Source: an uncultured Pseudomonadota bacterium (GTDB lineage: Bacteria; Desulfobacterota_B; Binatia; UBA9968). From it: a stretch of DNA of 25,416 nt. Positions within the stretch are counted from its first letter, which is position 1. Each line of letters begins with the position of its first letter. The notes below the pieces were generated by a model, which saw only the letters and a list, made by a program, of their open reading frames with translations, was not told the origin of the DNA and did not search any database. The position numbers were made by a program, and so were the translations under genes. Shown here in pieces: positions 2,424 to 21,286 of the stretch. The DNA lies in assembly GCA_946478635.1 (NCBI GenBank), contig CAMLCX010000014.1, positions 1 through 25,416 on the forward strand, read 5' to 3'.

Positions 2424-3896
2424 CTAGCGCTTCAAGGCTAAGAACACGCTCGACTCACCGCGGCGCACAAGAAAAAGCACTGATTTGCTTTTTTCGTTGC
2501 GTGAAATTTCGCGGTTGTAGTCCGCCAAATTCTTCACCGGGCGCCGGTTGACTTGCGTGATCACATCACCGGAGCGTAACCCAGCTTCGTCCGCGGCACT
2601 GCCTGGCTTGACGGAGGCAACGACAAGCCCTTCGGCGCGCTCGAGCCCCAAACTTTGCGCGATGTCCGGGGTTACAGGTTGAACGGTAAGACCCAGTTCG
2701 CTCTCTTGACCCGCAGAAGCCACGACCTCACTGTCCTTCATTTCCCCGACCGTGATCGGCAAAGAAATCTGCTTGCCTTCGCGAACGATCTTCAGTTGAG
2801 CCGCGGTTCCGGGTGCAAGCCGAGCCACGGCTGCGGGAAGATCGGATGAATCCTTAATCTCTTTGCGATCGAACTCGACGATGATATCACCGGCTTTAAC
2901 ACCGGCTTTTTCGGCCGGGCCACCCTTCACCACATCAGCGACTAAAGCTCCCGCGTTCTGCTTTAGACCGAGTGAATCGGCAATTTCGGGTGTGATTTTC
3001 TGTACGGTCGTACCCAAATAGCCGCGCACGACTCTGCCTTTATCTTTCAGTTGAGGTAGCAGATCTTTCACCGAGTTTGTTGGAATGGCAAAGCCGATAC
3101 CGATGTTGCCGCCGGATTGGCTGAAAATAGCGGTATTGATACCGACCACTTCACCGCGCAAATTGAGCAACGGCCCGCCGGAATTCCCGGGGTTAATCGA
3201 CGCGTCGGTTTGGATAAAATTGTCGTACGGCCCGGCGCCGATTTGCCGCCCCTTGGCGCTAACAATACCCGAGGTTACCGTGTGGTCGAGGCCAAAGGGA
3301 TTACCGATAGCCATCACCCACTCGCCGACTTCCAGGCGATCGGAGTCGCCCAGAGTCACAGCCGGAAGGTCTCGCCCCGCATCGATTTTGATGACGGCAA
3401 TATCGGTCTTTTCATCTTTGCCGATCACTTTGGCGTCATAACTCTTGCCGTCGGATAACGTCACGCTGACTTTCTGGGCGTTGTTGACGACGTGGTAATT
3501 GGTGAGAATCGTGCCGTTATGATCAATGATGAATCCCGAGCCCACGCCGTTTTGGCGCTGCGGGCCGCGCGGTATGCGTCCGCCGAAAAACCTTTCCAAC
3601 AAGTCGTTACGGGGATCGCCCTGGTCAAATGGCGAGGGCATGTCCTGCGCCATCTTTCGAATCTGGGTCGTCGAAACGTTCACCACCGAAGGTCCCACTC
3701 TCTTTGCCAGGTCGGCAAAATTCGGCAAGCCGCGAACCGCCTCCGTAGAGCCGGCGACTGGGATGGTACGATCGGCCGACGGATGGTTCTCGATCCCGGC
3801 ACCGATACCGACGCCCGCCAGCACGCAAAACGTACTGCCGGCGAGCAACGAAGCGATGCTGATTGTTTTCTTATAATTTGTTAATCGCCCTACCAT
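2424..3896 (-). CDS. degP: HtrA/Do-type periplasmic serine protease with two PDZ domains
   Basis: The 490-residue protein is a DegP/MucD-type protease that degrades or refolds damaged envelope proteins. Residues 10-33 form an N-terminal hydrophobic segment (signal peptide or membrane anchor). The trypsin-like domain follows with the full triad: H135 in TNYHVV, D165 in TDIAVIK and S239 in NPGNSGGPL. Two PDZ domains come next, at about 290-385 (starting RGYLG) and 395-488; their carboxylate-binding loops appear as RGYLG and ELGL. Length and architecture are normal for the family. The ATG at 3894-3896 is preceded by AGGAAG at good spacing, and the gene ends at a strong intrinsic terminator. The leader sits in an AT-rich stretch (3897-3930) that probably holds the promoter. 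The symbol degP is used in the broad sense; mucD or htrA would fit equally well. Confidence 0.96.
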   Translation of the reverse strand: MVGRLTNYKKTISIASLLAGSTFCVLAGVGIGAGIENHPSADRTIPVAGSTEAVRGLPNFADLAKRVGPSVVNVSTTQIRKMAQDMPSPFDQGDPRNDLLERFFGGRIPRGPQRQNGVGSGFIIDHNGTILTNYHVVNNAQKVSVTLSDGKSYDAKVIGKDEKTDIAVIKIDAGRDLPAVTLGDSDRLEVGEWVMAIGNPFGLDHTVTSGIVSAKGRQIGAGPYDNFIQTDASINPGNSGGPLLNLRGEVVGINTAIFSQSGGNIGIGFAIPTNSVKDLLPQLKDKGRVVRGYLGTTVQKITPEIADSLGLKQNAGALVADVVKGGPAEKAGVKAGDIIVEFDRKEIKDSSDLPAAVARLAPGTAAQLKIVREGKQISLPITVGEMKDSEVVASAGQESELGLTVQPVTPDIAQSLGLERAEGLVVASVKPGSAADEAGLRSGDVITQVNRRPVKNLADYNREISRNEKSKSVLFLVRRGESSVFLALKR

Positions 3897-12406: not shown

Positions 12407-13435
12407 TTAGCCGTTGCGCTTGGAACGGTTTACCGGCGCATCACGGGCAGGCTGATATAACTTCACCGCTTGGTTATGCGCCTCGATCGACTCCGAGAAA
12501 AGATGCGTGCCGTCGTTTTTTGACACGAAGTAGAGATACGGAACTTTCGCCGGCTGAAGCGCGGCCCGAATCGAGGAAAGACCAGGATTACAAATCGGCC
12601 CCGGGGGTAGCGCGGAAATCCGGTAAGTGTTGTACGGAGTTGGATCCTGCAAATGTTTTTTTGTAAGATTACCGCTGAAATCCTTGATGCCGTAAATAAC
12701 GGTAGGGTCGCTTTGGAGCGGCATCTGGCGTTGCAATCGATTGTGAAATACCGCCGAAACCAACGGACGTTCCGCCTCGATTCCCGTCTCCTTCTCGATA
12801 ATCGAGGCAATCGTGAGAATTTCATGAGGGGTGAGCGACGTCACGCCGTCGCGCTGATTCAACAAGGGCAGGGATACTTTGCGAAATTGTTCGGCCATCG
12901 TCGTGATAATATCTTTTTCCGGGGTCGACGGCGTAAAATGGTACGTGCTTGGAAACAAATATCCTTCGAGGCCCTTTTCGCTCAAGCCAAGCGTTGCCAA
13001 TAGATTTGGACTGCCGGCTTCGGCTAAAAATGTATCCTTATTGGCAATTTGCATCTTGTCGAGCAATTCGGCGATTTCCTTGATCGTCAAACCTTCGGGG
13101 ATGGTAACGCTTTGAAATATCCCCCTTCCGGTCACTAGCCGGTCCAAGATTTCCCTCGGCGGCACAGCGGTTTCGAAGCGATACAGCCCCTGGTGGATTC
13201 TTTTTTCCACACCGTTTAGACGCGCCCAGAGAGAAAATAGAAATCCATTGGCAATCAGTTGCTGATCGCGCAGCTTGCGGACCACGCTAGCCAACGAATC
13301 GCCCTGCTCGACCCGGATCTCCACCGGGTAGGGCCGGTCCCCGGCTGACCAGTAAAATATGGAGTAGGCCAAGACACCGGCCGTCAAAACGCCTCCAAGG
13401 AACGTGACGAGAAAAAAAATCCGTAAAGCTTTCAC
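12407..13435 (-). CDS. mltG: Endolytic murein transglycosylase MltG
   Basis: The 342-residue MltG (YceG-like) is an inner-membrane endolytic transglycosylase that cuts nascent glycan strands near the membrane and helps end their synthesis. An N-terminal membrane helix (about 5-28) is followed by a LysM-like region with 'VEQGDSLASVVRKL' (43-56). The catalytic domain then contains 'EGYLFPSTYHF' (157-167), the catalytic E214 in IIEKETG and 'NRLQRQMPLQSDPTVIYG'. 'DPTPYNTYRISALPPGPICNPGL' near the C-terminus is another family hallmark. The start is a GTG (13433-13435) chosen because it directly precedes the membrane helix; no ribosome binding site is evident. It is downstream of the 189-aa gene and upstream of the membrane protein/moxR pair, placing wall synthesis beside that system. 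Confidence 0.95.
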   Translation of the reverse strand: MKALRIFFLVTFLGGVLTAGVLAYSIFYWSAGDRPYPVEIRVEQGDSLASVVRKLRDQQLIANGFLFSLWARLNGVEKRIHQGLYRFETAVPPREILDRLVTGRGIFQSVTIPEGLTIKEIAELLDKMQIANKDTFLAEAGSPNLLATLGLSEKGLEGYLFPSTYHFTPSTPEKDIITTMAEQFRKVSLPLLNQRDGVTSLTPHEILTIASIIEKETGIEAERPLVSAVFHNRLQRQMPLQSDPTVIYGIKDFSGNLTKKHLQDPTPYNTYRISALPPGPICNPGLSSIRAALQPAKVPYLYFVSKNDGTHLFSESIEAHNQAVKLYQPARDAPVNRSKRNG

Positions 13436-17060: not shown

Positions 17061-17774
17061 TTATCGTAAATTGAAGCAATTGCGCAGTTCCTCCCAGGAG
17101 CGGTAATTGCTTAAATTCCGCAGCACGGCCAGGGTCGGCGGCACCATGCGGAATTCTCCCTCTTCGGCTCGCTGAAGAGCTGCGCTAGGGACAATCCATA
17201 AGCTTTCTGATATCTCCTCCGAGGCATGTAAGGGGTTTTGACCCCTCGGTAGTGCGGCTAGATAAAAGCGGGTATCGAATCGAACTCGGTAATGCTCCGG
17301 TGTAATTCGATGAAAAATATAGCTCAGCGGCGACACATCGCAAAAAAGGCCCTCGGAAATAAGCAGGTCTGCTAACGCGATATTGCCTTGTTGCAATGCT
17401 GCGCGCTTGCCCGCCAAGCGTTCGGAGATTTCCTCGGGAAGCATCGGCGCCGCTTTGCCCGACATGAAAAAATGGACCCCTACCTCTTCAAACAGTTCGC
17501 GCGCTGCCGCCACCCAATATGCGAGACAGATCTCCGGCTCAAACTCCGCGCCGAGTTTTTGCTTCGCTTCAGCAGGGGTCATGCCGAGGGTCCGGCCGAT
17601 CATACCTGTCGAATAGTCACCCTTCTCAACTCGCCCACCCGGAAAGACATAAACCCCGGCGTAGGTGTCCATCTCATCGGGTCGGCGATTGATATAAAGT
17701 TCGAATTTACCGTGCGGGTCAGGTCGAACGAGAACCACTGTCGAGGCAGGGAGCGGAGTTGCGGCTTGCGCCAT
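17061..17774 (-). CDS. Nudix hydrolase, NUDT19-like with split Nudix box
   Basis: The 237-residue Nudix hydrolase hydrolyses a nucleoside diphosphate linked to another group; related NUDT19 and RP2p enzymes act on coenzyme A or acyl-CoA esters. The first half of the Nudix box is 'VFPGGRVEKGD' (43-53) and the second half is 'RELFEEVGV' (92-100). About 30 extra residues lie between them, including 'GMTPAEAKQKL'. An insertion at this point is the hallmark of the NUDT19/RP2p group. The ATG at 17772-17774 has AAGGA seven bases upstream and is preferred over an extension to 17909. It begins 55 bases after the end of the first coiled-coil/peptidase-like gene and is probably co-transcribed with it. 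Confidence 0.88.
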   Translation of the reverse strand: MAQAATPLPASTVVLVRPDPHGKFELYINRRPDEMDTYAGVYVFPGGRVEKGDYSTGMIGRTLGMTPAEAKQKLGAEFEPEICLAYWVAAARELFEEVGVHFFMSGKAAPMLPEEISERLAGKRAALQQGNIALADLLISEGLFCDVSPLSYIFHRITPEHYRVRFDTRFYLAALPRGQNPLHASEEISESLWIVPSAALQRAEEGEFRMVPPTLAVLRNLSNYRSWEELRNCFNLR

Positions 17775-17829: not shown

Positions 17830-18603
17830 TCACAAGCGCGGCGATGGTTTGCCGATATGGATGTGTGCGCCCGTCGCTGCGCCGGGAACCGCGCTCCGGA
17901 AAGCGACAAATGGAATCCCCGATTGGCGTAGATAGTTCAGCAACGATTGGCCTTCTTTGCTATCTGGATGAAGCGCGACATCCATCGCATCGCGATGGTC
18001 GAATCGCAACCGATCATGAGTGGCCGTTTGACCAAGCGCGCTGATCGGCAAGGATCGACCGAAAGTCTCAAGAAAAAATTTTTCGATCCGTGAAGCGTCA
18101 CCGAGCCTCCACAATGTGCCCCCATTGAAGCGCAAAAATCTGCCGTTTTCGCTGTAGCCACCTAACGCCAAACGGGGCAGACGCAGCAACTCGTCGCGCA
18201 TGGCGACTTCGGTAATTGCCATGTCGGTTTCGGCCAACCAGCGTTTGTCTTCGTCGACTCTAATCATCGCCTCGGCGAGCGCGTTCTCCGCTTGCAGCAC
18301 ATCGCTGCGCGCGATCAGACCCTGGTGATAAAGCTCCCGCTGCCTTTGGTATTCTTCGACGCGCCTCTGCCGCTCTGTCTCATGGAGCGCCATGAGTTTT
18401 TCAGCGCCGGCCCGCGTCTCCTTTATTTTCTGAATGACTTCGGTGCGAGCGCGCGATAATTCAGATTCTGAAGGGCTAGCTCGCCGGCTTACGGCGGCGC
18501 GCAATGGCGCCTGGCTTCGCGATTCCTGCGCACTCGCCAGGTCACAACATAATGCCAGGATCGCCAGCCATCCCGTCAAATCGCTGAGTTTTAAAGAGCC
18601 CAT
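17830..18603 (-). CDS. Exported coiled-coil protein with LAS-like metallopeptidase candidate domain (paralog A)
   Basis: The 257-residue protein has a signal peptide (cleavage likely after DLASA, about residue 25). A long coiled coil follows at about 48-135. Its 'LYHQGLIARSDVLQAENALAEA' segment resembles the alpha-hairpin of TolC or HlyD proteins. The C-terminal domain (about 140-257) is 'RLPRLALGGYSENGRFLRFNGG...' followed by H196, H203-x4-D208 in HRDAMD, H212-P-D, and H247-I-H249 in ATGAHIHIG. An H-x(3-6)-D motif followed by a C-terminal HxH is the layout of LAS zinc peptidases (M15, M23), and 'TGAHIH' recalls M23 'TGPHLHF'. Assignment as a peptidase is inference. A paralog lies at 20519-21286, about 60% identical by eye over the C-terminal domain. 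The gene is divergent from a secreted protease gene and upstream of the Nudix gene. Confidence 0.8.
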   Translation of the reverse strand: MGSLKLSDLTGWLAILALCCDLASAQESRSQAPLRAAVSRRASPSESELSRARTEVIQKIKETRAGAEKLMALHETERQRRVEEYQRQRELYHQGLIARSDVLQAENALAEAMIRVDEDKRWLAETDMAITEVAMRDELLRLPRLALGGYSENGRFLRFNGGTLWRLGDASRIEKFFLETFGRSLPISALGQTATHDRLRFDHRDAMDVALHPDSKEGQSLLNYLRQSGIPFVAFRSAVPGAATGAHIHIGKPSPRL

Positions 18604-18757
18604 GGTTCTATTCGGTCCAAGGTCCAGAGTTTAAAAAGTTAGCGTATTTAGGTCAAGGCGCTTGGCCGGCTGCATTGATAGGCACTCCATATTGTCGCGA
18701 AGCTGCCGGCAGGGTAAGATCACAAAATCGATGGGTTTAGCGCTCGCGAATAAGAAC

Positions 18758-19546
18758 ATGTTTAGGTTTGAAAGATTTCGAGTGGGTCTGGCTTGCATCA
18801 CCGCTGCCGTCATTTCATTCACCTCGGTCAGCGCCACGGCAGCGCAGAACTTGCCCGACACCATCGAGAGAATCAAACCGGCGATCGTTGGCATAGGCAC
18901 CTTTGAGAGAACACGCCGGCCGCCTTCGGTGTTTCGTGGCACCGGATTCGCGATCGCCGACGGACTTCACGTGGTTACCAATGCTCACGTTTTGTTGGAA
19001 AAAGTCGATAGTAACAAGAAAGAAATTGTTGCCGTGTTTGCCGGGAAGGCAAACGCGATCGACATGCGCGAAGCCATTAAGATCGCCGAGGACCTGGAGC
19101 ATGATATCGCCATACTTAAAATAACCGGCCGGCCTTTGACGGCGCTGGCTTTGGGTGATTCCAATCGTGTCCGAGAGGGGGAAACCTACGCCTTTACCGG
19201 TTTCCCAATCGGCATGGTTCTCGGTCTTAACGCGGTTACCCATAGGGCGATCGTTTCATCAATCACGCCGATTGTCATTCCCCAACTTTCCGGCCAGCAA
19301 TTGGAAAAGAAGATCCTGACTCGGTTAGCGGCGCCGTATAACGTCTTTCAACTCGATGCCACCGCCTATCCAGGAAACAGCGGCAGCCCGCTTTACCATC
19401 CGGAAAGCGGGCAGGTCATCGGTATAATTAACAAAGTTTTTATCCAGGAAACGAAAGAGACCGTTATTCAAAAGCCCAGTGGAATCTCTTACGCGATTCC
19501 GATTATCCATGTGCAAGACTTGCTTAAGAAGAGCCGTATCGACTAG
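18758..19546 (+). CDS. Secreted trypsin-like serine protease (S1C type, no PDZ)
   Basis: The 262-residue protease has a canonical signal peptide ending SATAA/QN (about residue 29). The catalytic triad is visible: H77 in TNAHVL, D116 in EHDIAILK and S208 in YPGNSGSPLY. Unlike HtrA/DegP there is no PDZ domain; the protein ends shortly after 'GISYAIPIIHVQDLL'. It therefore may act as a stand-alone processing protease or be regulated through an unknown partner. The ATG at 18758 gives the best signal peptide; the ATG at 18731 (nine more residues) is possible and neither has a strong ribosome binding site. It is divergent from paralog A with 154 bases between, and lies between the two paralogs. 'GLNAVTHRAIVSSITP' is the loop region that differs most from DegP. 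Confidence 0.88.
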   Translation: MFRFERFRVGLACITAAVISFTSVSATAAQNLPDTIERIKPAIVGIGTFERTRRPPSVFRGTGFAIADGLHVVTNAHVLLEKVDSNKKEIVAVFAGKANAIDMREAIKIAEDLEHDIAILKITGRPLTALALGDSNRVREGETYAFTGFPIGMVLGLNAVTHRAIVSSITPIVIPQLSGQQLEKKILTRLAAPYNVFQLDATAYPGNSGSPLYHPESGQVIGIINKVFIQETKETVIQKPSGISYAIPIIHVQDLLKKSRID

Positions 19547-19561
19547 CGCACGCCGGACCAA

Positions 19562-19625
19562 ACCCGCGGCGGGTCTGACGAGATGGACCCAACGTGCGAC
19601 GCTGATCCTTGGTCAGCTGCGTCGC
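19562..19625 (+). other. Two consecutive GC-rich hairpins downstream of the protease gene
   Basis: The first is ACCCG/CGGGT around a CGG loop (19562-19574). The second pairs GCGACGC (19596-19602) with GCGTCGC (19619-19625), extended by TGA/TCA around a seven-base loop with a small bulge. They lie 16-80 bases after the protease stop codon. No T-run follows, so they could stabilise the mRNA end or take part in factor-dependent termination. The remaining stretch to 19752 shows nothing else. Confidence 0.35.
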
Positions 19626-19752
19626 CGTCGAACGCTTGGAGCCAGCGCGAGGACAGGAAGCGAGGAAGCCTTCCGCCCCTACTGGATTTGCTGAGAGACA
19701 AAAAAGGAAATTCCCTCGGACCGTCTTCACCGACCTTCAGCGGAAACCCTGG

Positions 19753-20130
19753 TCAGCGGATGAGGGACAGTAAAGTCGCAATGAAAATAACACCAAAAAT
19801 AACCAACCAAATCATTGACTGATTGGATTCGCCGGCGTTCTCGAGGAAGTCGTTCAACCGCCGCGGATTGCTCGTCCTACTGACATCCAGGAGTTCGTTA
19901 CGAATCGCCTTGAGACGATCGACAACCTCCAGCTGTTTTTCGACCCTGAGCTGCGACCATCGATTGGCATCGACGTTGCCGGTACCATCCGTCACGGTTG
20001 TGCGAATATTTTCGATTTTCGTTTGCTTCAACTTATCGGTTGGCATATCAGCGTTTTTCTCTGAATTCCGCGTCAGCTTGTCGATTTCATCGAGTAAGTG
20101 TTGAATGACTCTGGGTGCGATCTTTCCCAC
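19753..20130 (-). CDS. Tail-anchored membrane protein, hypothetical, 125 aa
   Basis: No family is recognised. The protein is helical and polar, with a Lys/Thr/Asp-rich middle ('DKLKQTKIENIRTTVTDGTGN') and an amphipathic 'EKQLEVVDRLKAIRNELLDV' helix. It ends in a single C-terminal membrane helix, 'SMIWLVIFGVIFIATLLSLIR', so nearly all of it would face the cytoplasm. The start is the GTG at 20128-20130, preceded by GAGAGGA nine bases upstream; an upstream GTG at 20196 has no such support. It lies between the secreted protease and paralog B and is transcribed toward the protease gene. Confidence 0.62.
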   Translation of the reverse strand: MGKIAPRVIQHLLDEIDKLTRNSEKNADMPTDKLKQTKIENIRTTVTDGTGNVDANRWSQLRVEKQLEVVDRLKAIRNELLDVSRTSNPRRLNDFLENAGESNQSMIWLVIFGVIFIATLLSLIR

Positions 20131-20518
20131 GTTCGTCCATCCTCTCCGTGCGTGTTGAATTTGAAAGGCGCAGTGGAAAGCGCCGGTAATTTTCACCCGG
20201 AAACTACCGTTTCACGTCTACTTTAAACTTCATGTGAGCGATTGATCGCCAGTAGGTTCTCGCAACCTAAGTGCCACGTGATCGACGCTAAAGACTCACA
20301 TTGCGGCCAGGCAATAAGAGCCGTGTTTTGCGACGTTTTTTGCGCGTGTCGATGGCAGAAAGCGGAAGAAAGAGCTAATGCGATAACGCGCCGAGCGTAA
20401 ACAACCGTTCACAGCCCGGAAACAAATGTTTACAGGCTGTGCGAGGAAGCGGATTGGAAGCTAAATTCGGAAGACGTTAGTCTGTTCAGGATCGAATCTT
20501 CAGGGCAACCGGAGGCAA
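20131..20518. other. 388-base gene-free stretch with nested inverted repeats
   Basis: No convincing coding frame was found. The main structure is at 20397-20441. CACAGCC (20410-20416) pairs with GGCTGTG (20435-20441), with an inner AAAC/GTTT stem. Alternatively GTAAACA (20397-20403) pairs with TGTTTAC (20427-20433). The two pairings exclude each other. No T-run follows on either strand. Position between the stop of paralog B and the start of the tail-anchored gene, both on the minus strand, would suit a leader with promoter and operator for the latter. Confidence 0.4.
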
Positions 20519-21286
20519 TTAGTGCGCGAGCCGTCCGGAAGGCCTGCCGACGTGAATGTGCGGGCCTGTGGAGGCGCCAGGGACGGAACCGCGAAAAGCG
20601 ATATAAGGGATGCCGCTTTTGCGTAGATGGTCGATAAGAACTTTTCCCTCTAAGCTGTCCGGATGAAGCGCCACATCCATAGAATCACGATGGTCGAAAT
20701 TTAAACGGTTATGAGTATCGGACTGCCCCAAAGCAGTCACGGGCAGTCGTCTGCCAAATGCTTGGGAAAAATACCTCTCGATGCGCGGCGCTTCCCGTAT
20801 CGACCATTTGAATCCACCGTTGAAACGCGCCAAATCGGGCGTCTCGCTGTAACCGTTGATGGGCAGGGGTGGCAGTCGATTGACTTTCTCACCGAGTACA
20901 GCTTCCGTAATGGCGATATCGGTCTCCGTCACCGAGTTGCGCATTTCATGCACGCGCTTAAGTACCGCGACAAACTGTTGCTCCGCTTCCTGAACCTGCT
21001 GTTTTGAGGATTGACCCTCCTGATGAAGTTTGCGCCAGTTGATGACCTCTATCCTTAAACGCGATTGTTCTTTCTCCAAGTCGGCGAGCAGCTTCCGCTC
21101 CTTGGCGAGCGAATTTCTCATTTCGCCGATGGCATCCGAGTTCGTAAAAGTATCGGGTTTTCGGCTAGTGCCAAAGATTTGGCCGGGTGAACTCAGAGTG
21201 TTGACAACCACGAAACCTACCGCGATCAAAGGAAGAATTATCGCGGCTAACAGGACTCGTCGAGGTAGGGCTAGGTCGTGGAACAT
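20519..21286 (-). CDS. Membrane-anchored coiled-coil protein with LAS-like metallopeptidase candidate domain (paralog B)
   Basis: The 255-residue protein is a paralog of the product of 17830-18603. It begins with an uncleaved-looking membrane anchor (about 10-31) instead of a cleavable signal. A coiled coil follows at about 55-130, with 'KLHQEGQSSKQQVQEAEQQ' matching the hairpin segment of paralog A. The C-terminal domain (135-255) is 'RLPPLPINGYSETPDLARFNGG...' with H192, H199-x4-D204 in HRDSMD, H208-P-D and H243-I-H245 in ASTGPHIHVG. All candidate metal ligands of paralog A are conserved here, while the coiled coil has diverged strongly, so the C-terminal domain is under the stronger constraint. 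A LAS-type zinc peptidase fold is inferred from the motifs. The ATG at 21284-21286 has GAGG close upstream. The 97 bases to the next gene upstream hold nothing obvious. Confidence 0.8.
   Translation of the reverse strand: MFHDLALPRRVLLAAIILPLIAVGFVVVNTLSSPGQIFGTSRKPDTFTNSDAIGEMRNSLAKERKLLADLEKEQSRLRIEVINWRKLHQEGQSSKQQVQEAEQQFVAVLKRVHEMRNSVTETDIAITEAVLGEKVNRLPPLPINGYSETPDLARFNGGFKWSIREAPRIERYFSQAFGRRLPVTALGQSDTHNRLNFDHRDSMDVALHPDSLEGKVLIDHLRKSGIPYIAFRGSVPGASTGPHIHVGRPSGRLAH

Follow-up and report, generated by a model that had tools for sequence, protein, structure and literature searches.

Two paralogous coiled-coil proteins of an uncultured bacterium with an unnamed, putative LAS-like peptidase domain and a homolog in a phage

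A stretch of 25,416 nucleotides from an uncultured bacterium (GenBank assembly GCA_946478635.1, contig CAMLCX010000014.1; in the following, the window) encodes two paralogous proteins, here called A and B. Both are probably exported peptidoglycan peptidases with an unnamed LAS-like domain at the C-terminus, and the same domain was found in a phage protein encoded among genes for tail and internal virion proteins. An earlier note, made from the DNA letters alone, had already drawn attention to the pair. The features are compiled in Table 1.

Both minus-strand open reading frames (ORFs) are intact and lie where the earlier note had placed them. Their products are 48% identical over 204 amino acids, which confirms the paralogy. 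The proposed succession of an export or anchor segment, a coiled coil and a C-terminal domain agrees with hydropathy and with the structure model of B, in which residues 9-30 form a helix and residues 46-89 and 95-137 a helical hairpin, followed by a separate domain at the C-terminus. The N-terminus of B is strongly hydrophobic (KD19 maximum 2.76), that of A is milder and signal-peptide-like (1.43). Fold searches with the whole protein gave matches mainly to the coiled coil, and therefore the C-terminal domain was modelled alone. Structural matches of the HlyD/MacA hairpin type were common in the fold search; none of the HlyD adaptor models exceeded its cut-off, TIGR01843 reaching 15.3 of 208.65 bits for A. 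Pfam and NCBIfam scans of A and B yielded no model over cut-off, and a Pfam scan of 30 C-terminal domains detected no family common to them. Pfam AbiEii exceeded its cut-off in the hairpin of the homolog P0322 only and was taken as a chance match. Four relatives (P0130, P0149, P0152 and P0209) carry the source name "Spy/CpxP family protein refolding chaperone", perhaps owing to the hairpin alone.

Table 1. Positions of the paralogs, their predicted functional elements and adjacent genes in the window.
Feature	Position	Strand	Basis or remark
Paralog A, 257 aa: signal-peptide-like N-terminus, helical hairpin, LAS-like C-terminal domain	17830..18603	-	
A, LAS-like domain, about residues 142-257	17833..18180	-	alignment to B; alignments A2, A3
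A, H203-x4-D208, predicted first two zinc ligands	17980..17997	-	invariant 89/89
A, H247-x-H249 (HxH)	17857..17865	-	first His 89/89, second 88/89
Paralog B, 255 aa: N-terminal membrane anchor, helical hairpin, LAS-like C-terminal domain	20519..21286	-	
B, N-terminal hydrophobic helix, residues 9-30	21197..21262	-	model and hydropathy
B, helical hairpin, residues 46-137, resembling HlyD-type periplasmic adaptor hairpins	20876..21151	-	
B, LAS-like domain, residues 138-255	20522..20875	-	model pLDDT 92.5, pTM 0.87
B, H192, proposed counterpart of Shh H135	20711..20713	-	invariant 89/89, retained in phage
B, H199-x4-D204, predicted zinc ligands	20675..20692	-	89/89
B, H243-x-H245 (HxH), predicted catalytic His and third zinc ligand	20552..20560	-	89/89 and 88/89
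Secreted PDZ-less trypsin-like protease, divergent from A, convergent with B	18758..19546	+	ORF open from 18662
Tail-anchored small protein	19753..20196	-	hydrophobic segment at the C-terminus (KD19 maximum 2.77, residue 128)
NUDIX hydrolase, immediately downstream of A	17061..17774	-	PF00293 E 1.4e-6; likely start ATG at 17774

The conservation of the C-terminal domain was followed in 89 aligned sequences (B numbering). All of them have H192, H199, D204, H243, Q188, D210, E213 and R222; H245 is retained in 88 and H208 in 87 sequences. The H-x4-D spacing is constant in all 89 and HxH in 88 of them, and the five residues H192, H199, D204, H243 and H245 are all present in 30 genome copies (alignment A3). 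The broken A copy of the relative G009 and the duplicate L024 were left out of alignment and tree. The four residues of A on which the earlier note had relied (H203, D208, H247 and H249) were accordingly kept in 89/89 sequences, H249 in 88/89. Of the three motifs which it had called invariant, H-x4-D and HxH stood, whereas HPD lies outside the conserved core, as the phage copy reads S-P-T at this site. In addition, it had overlooked a fifth invariant residue, H192, which corresponds to H196 in A. The bare His/Asp pattern by itself is not significant, since H-x(3-6)-D ... HxH arose in 1203 of 20000 shuffles of the domain. It is the conservation across sequences that makes the pattern more than chance.

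The LAS consensus is described as H-X(3-6)-D ... H plus H-X-H, in which the catalytic residue is the first His of H-X-H (PMC4087270), and the family contains this motif. The domain model gave weak structural matches to Shh, VldE, the S. albus DD-peptidase, LdcB and VanXYc. Motif, conservation and the order of secondary-structure elements agree, and a LAS-like domain is supported by them, though not proven. Two results do not bear out the relationship suggested in the earlier note: a Foldseek search with the domain model returned nothing significant, and hhalign against 29 M15_3 domains (29 loci, without L053, L085, L102 and L108) gave a probability of 0.2 and hence no profile link. The M15 Pfam models matched none of 30 domains, the Peptidase_M23 model matched neither A, B nor the 30 domains, and hhalign against M23 reached a probability of 15.8 over 14 columns only. 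A sequence search of the PDB with the domain profile produced two matches (E 0.74 and 1.6), both judged to be chance.

When viral contigs were scanned with the domain profile, three of them matched, and two further scans gave the same three only. They are counted as one phage because they are 99.99% identical over the parts compared. The domain forms the end of a 623-residue protein (L111:3396-5267) and is 52% identical to the domain of B and 55% to that of A. Upstream of its gene lie two genes for tail proteins, assigned to phrog_394 and phrog_376, two for internal virion proteins, phrog_308 at E 1.3e-4 and phrog_418 at E 1.8e-8, and a tail-fibre-type start of phrog_1640; a gene for a 1515-residue protein follows downstream. 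This order resembles that of T7 genes 11 to 16, except that a piece of a tail-fibre gene is inserted between 14 and 15. The carrier stands among tail and internal virion genes, as a T7-like ejection protein would (the T7 gene numbers are supported by PMC8954989). Neither the 623- nor the 1515-residue protein had a Pfam match at E <= 0.01, and both were assigned by position and size. The 1515-residue protein in the gp16 position (L111:5267-9814) showed a DarB-like antirestriction PHROG match over about 200 residues. The phage copy retains H192, H199, D204, H243, H245, Q188, E213 and G214 and is devoid of H208, D210 and R222. Consequently, the likely active site is narrowed to the LAS set. The GC content of the phage (0.55) is close to that of the window (0.547), which hints weakly at a shared host.

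From these results we propose that A and B are envelope-held peptidoglycan peptidases of a lineage-restricted family. B is probably anchored in the membrane and A probably secreted. The C-terminal domain would have a small zinc-peptidase fold of the LAS type, in which the first motif is shortened to H199-x4-D204. In HxH, H243 would be catalytic and H245 the third zinc ligand, and the invariant Q188 would replace the arginine of M15 enzymes. In the periplasm, the helical hairpin probably acts as a spacer or as an arm for docking. On the T7-like, short-tailed phage the same domain, carried by the protein in gp15 position, probably opens the wall during DNA entry. A role in wall remodelling had been suggested before; it is strengthened because the phage relative stands among virion ejection genes, with peptidoglycan as the presumed substrate. 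A more far-reaching account is put forward only tentatively: A and B may represent a new LAS-clan peptidase family of one Binatia-type lineage, combining an adaptor-type hairpin with a minimal H-x4-D/Gln site, which was taken up by (or given to the lineage by) a phage of that lineage as a wall-opening ejection blade. If true, an unnamed family would be added to a superfamily that covers wall enzymes and animal Hedgehog, and a poorly known bacterial lineage would have a wall peptidase of its own. The phage would use a peptidase for entry where glycosidases are usual, and the family would test whether an invariant Gln can take the place of the oxyanion Arg, a replacement reported for phi29 gp13.

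Coiled coil and LAS-like domain together recall the gross plan of EnvC and NlpD, to which the earlier note had pointed; in such a regulator a non-cutting LAS-type domain would activate other wall hydrolases. In favour of this reading, all 24 related genomes searched encode M23 proteins of their own. However, EnvC and NlpD are described in PMC9662197 as having no complete catalytic set, whereas the predicted ligands and the catalytic His are retained here in 88 or 89 of 89 sequences. Because of this retention, and with no M23 Pfam match in A, B or the domains, EnvC-like regulation is improbable and was not favoured. It is similarly improbable that the proteins are LAS-like zinc proteases which cut envelope proteins or a partner of the hairpin instead of peptidoglycan, with the hairpin as an adaptor-type docking arm. 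The hairpin does resemble those of HlyD and MacA, many of the homologs listed carry a precomputed PF25994 assignment (which a Pfam scan of P0241 and P0167 did not reproduce), and Shh is presented in PMC6027127 as a LAS protein that works outside any wall. Against this, hairpin matches were commonplace in the fold search, no transporter gene was a steady neighbour in the neighbourhoods of the relatives, and the phage copy among ejection genes indicates the wall. In two close relatives (L020:1081-2726 and L048:6403-8049) a single-copy member overlaps or follows a same-strand gene for an ABC-transporter ATPase. That the domain binds zinc or a glycan, has an unrelated fold and merely resembles the LAS motifs appears quite unlikely: the model suggests the same element order, recurrent LAS matches and a fitting HxH register, and the phage gene context also argues against it. 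Exported peptidoglycan peptidases are the best reading of A and B.

Protein searches at E <= 0.001 yielded 719 relatives with B, 1416 with A and 623 with a divergent member as query. Among the best 120 of each, most names are absent or "hypothetical protein", and the organisms include "Candidatus Binatia bacterium", "Deltaproteobacteria bacterium" and one "Terriglobales bacterium". From these labels we infer a Binatia-type lineage. Judged by the Pfam, NCBIfam and PHROGs scans and by the names of the relatives listed, the family is unnamed. Of 25 genomes from the bacterial family to which the syntenic relative G001 belongs, 22 gave a match to the full-length profile. In a class sample 24 of 145 genomes matched; 22 were those of this family, and the other two owed their match to the coiled coil only and were excluded from the membership. 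In the phylum samples 2 of 297 (full-length profile) and 2 of 395 genomes (domain profile) matched, both again of this family, with at most 9 or 11 candidates, respectively, scored per listed genome, so that misses are possible. Within the phylum sample the proteins are thus restricted to one family. No match was found in plasmids or in INPHARED phages. In a tree of 44 rows the B clade comprises 12 rows (support 100/99), apart from the 32 rows of A and other members (support 100/99). B and A occur together at the syntenic locus in five genomes (G001, G009, G010, G011 and G012). The "Terriglobales bacterium" protein P0091 sits inside the B clade; a wrong label or a move of the gene may explain this. 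Neither Binatota nor Binatia was named among the listed matches of a search for wall-related literature.

The predicted trypsin-like protease between the paralogs was recovered (ORF 18662-19546, plus strand; Trypsin_2 E 1.9e-23), and no PDZ model matched it. It likely starts with the ATG at 18758, just ahead of a segment that resembles a signal peptide. Another trypsin-like protease of the window carries two PDZ domains (2424-3896). At the syntenic locus G011 and G012 have an intact protease; it is broken into two pieces, each with a TGA, in G010, reduced to a stretch of 62 residues in G001 and absent from G009. Its place and orientation in G010, G011 and G012 are those of the window, and hence it was probably inherited at the loci where it is present, while the A/B pair persists without it. 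The recurring protease partner expected earlier was found at the same place in three relatives, but a steady protease-peptidase module was rejected: at E <= 1e-30, of 24 genomes of the family 3 gave a protease match and the other 21 none (G009 was outside this draw), and copies are broken or remnant. The split genes, paralog A in G009 (L033:9317-9992) and the protease in G010 (L035:2656-3428), are either assembly errors or decaying genes. The tail-anchored protein likewise bears the C-terminal hydrophobic segment that had been predicted. As a partner it recurred in one relative only, G009, where a 41% identical homolog lies between the paralogs and the protease is absent; a query against 24 genomes, a draw without G009, matched none, a result which is not informative. 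The NUDIX gene sits immediately downstream of A in 9/9 genome rows of the A clade and also lies beside the broken A copy of G009; it is a steadier partner of A than the protease. The conserved block also holds genes for a glucan phosphorylase, an alpha/beta hydrolase, a YceG/MltG protein and a MoxR-type ATPase. In the window the YceG/MltG-family gene lies at 12407-13435, in the block shared with the paralogs.

Among known systems, the M15-type LAS peptidases (S. albus Zn DD-peptidase, LdcB, Peptidase_M15_3) share with the family the order of secondary-structure elements in our own comparison, an H...D motif followed by HxH or HxD near the end, and weak structural matches spanning 87-92 residues. 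They differ by H-x6-D in place of H-x4-D, by the SGYR arginine, at whose position the invariant Q188 stands in a pairing aligned by eye, and by the lack of profile similarity. The L,D-endopeptidase domain of VldE (Spr1875), described as a LAS fold, is of similar size. Its zinc ligands are given as H301, D308 and H375, with H373-x-H375 (PMC11667670), and in the model H375 superposes on H245 of B. In contrast to the family, VldE is described with a LysM module instead of the hairpin, a catalytic Arg294 and a zinc-zipper loop. For Shh, the zinc residues H141, D148 and H183 and the stacked H135 and H181 are reported (PMC8052667), and all five have candidate counterparts in the family by sequence. 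No counterpart of Shh Glu177 was seen, a difference from Hedgehog and the bacterial Hedgehog-like DD-peptidases, and comparison with the printed Drosophila Hh peptide remained at background level. The TGPHIH of the family resembles TGPHLH of M23/LytM enzymes, whereas the modelled domain has a helix between Asp and HxH and the family far fewer residues between the motifs than the M23 sequences compared. The M23 enzyme phi29 gp13 is a phage entry enzyme in which the oxyanion Arg is reported to be replaced by Gln (PMC9662197), the residue likewise found here. The T7-like ejection proteins gp15 and gp16 resemble the phage carrier in gene position and size. They may also share a wall hydrolase, as T7 gp16 is listed as a lytic transglycosylase (PMC5380687) and the gp16 hydrolase domain is reported to swap to gp15 homologs (PMC8954989). 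The carrier differs in that it matches no PHROG at E <= 0.01 and would bring a peptidase, most virion-associated lysins described in PMC5380687 being glycosidases.
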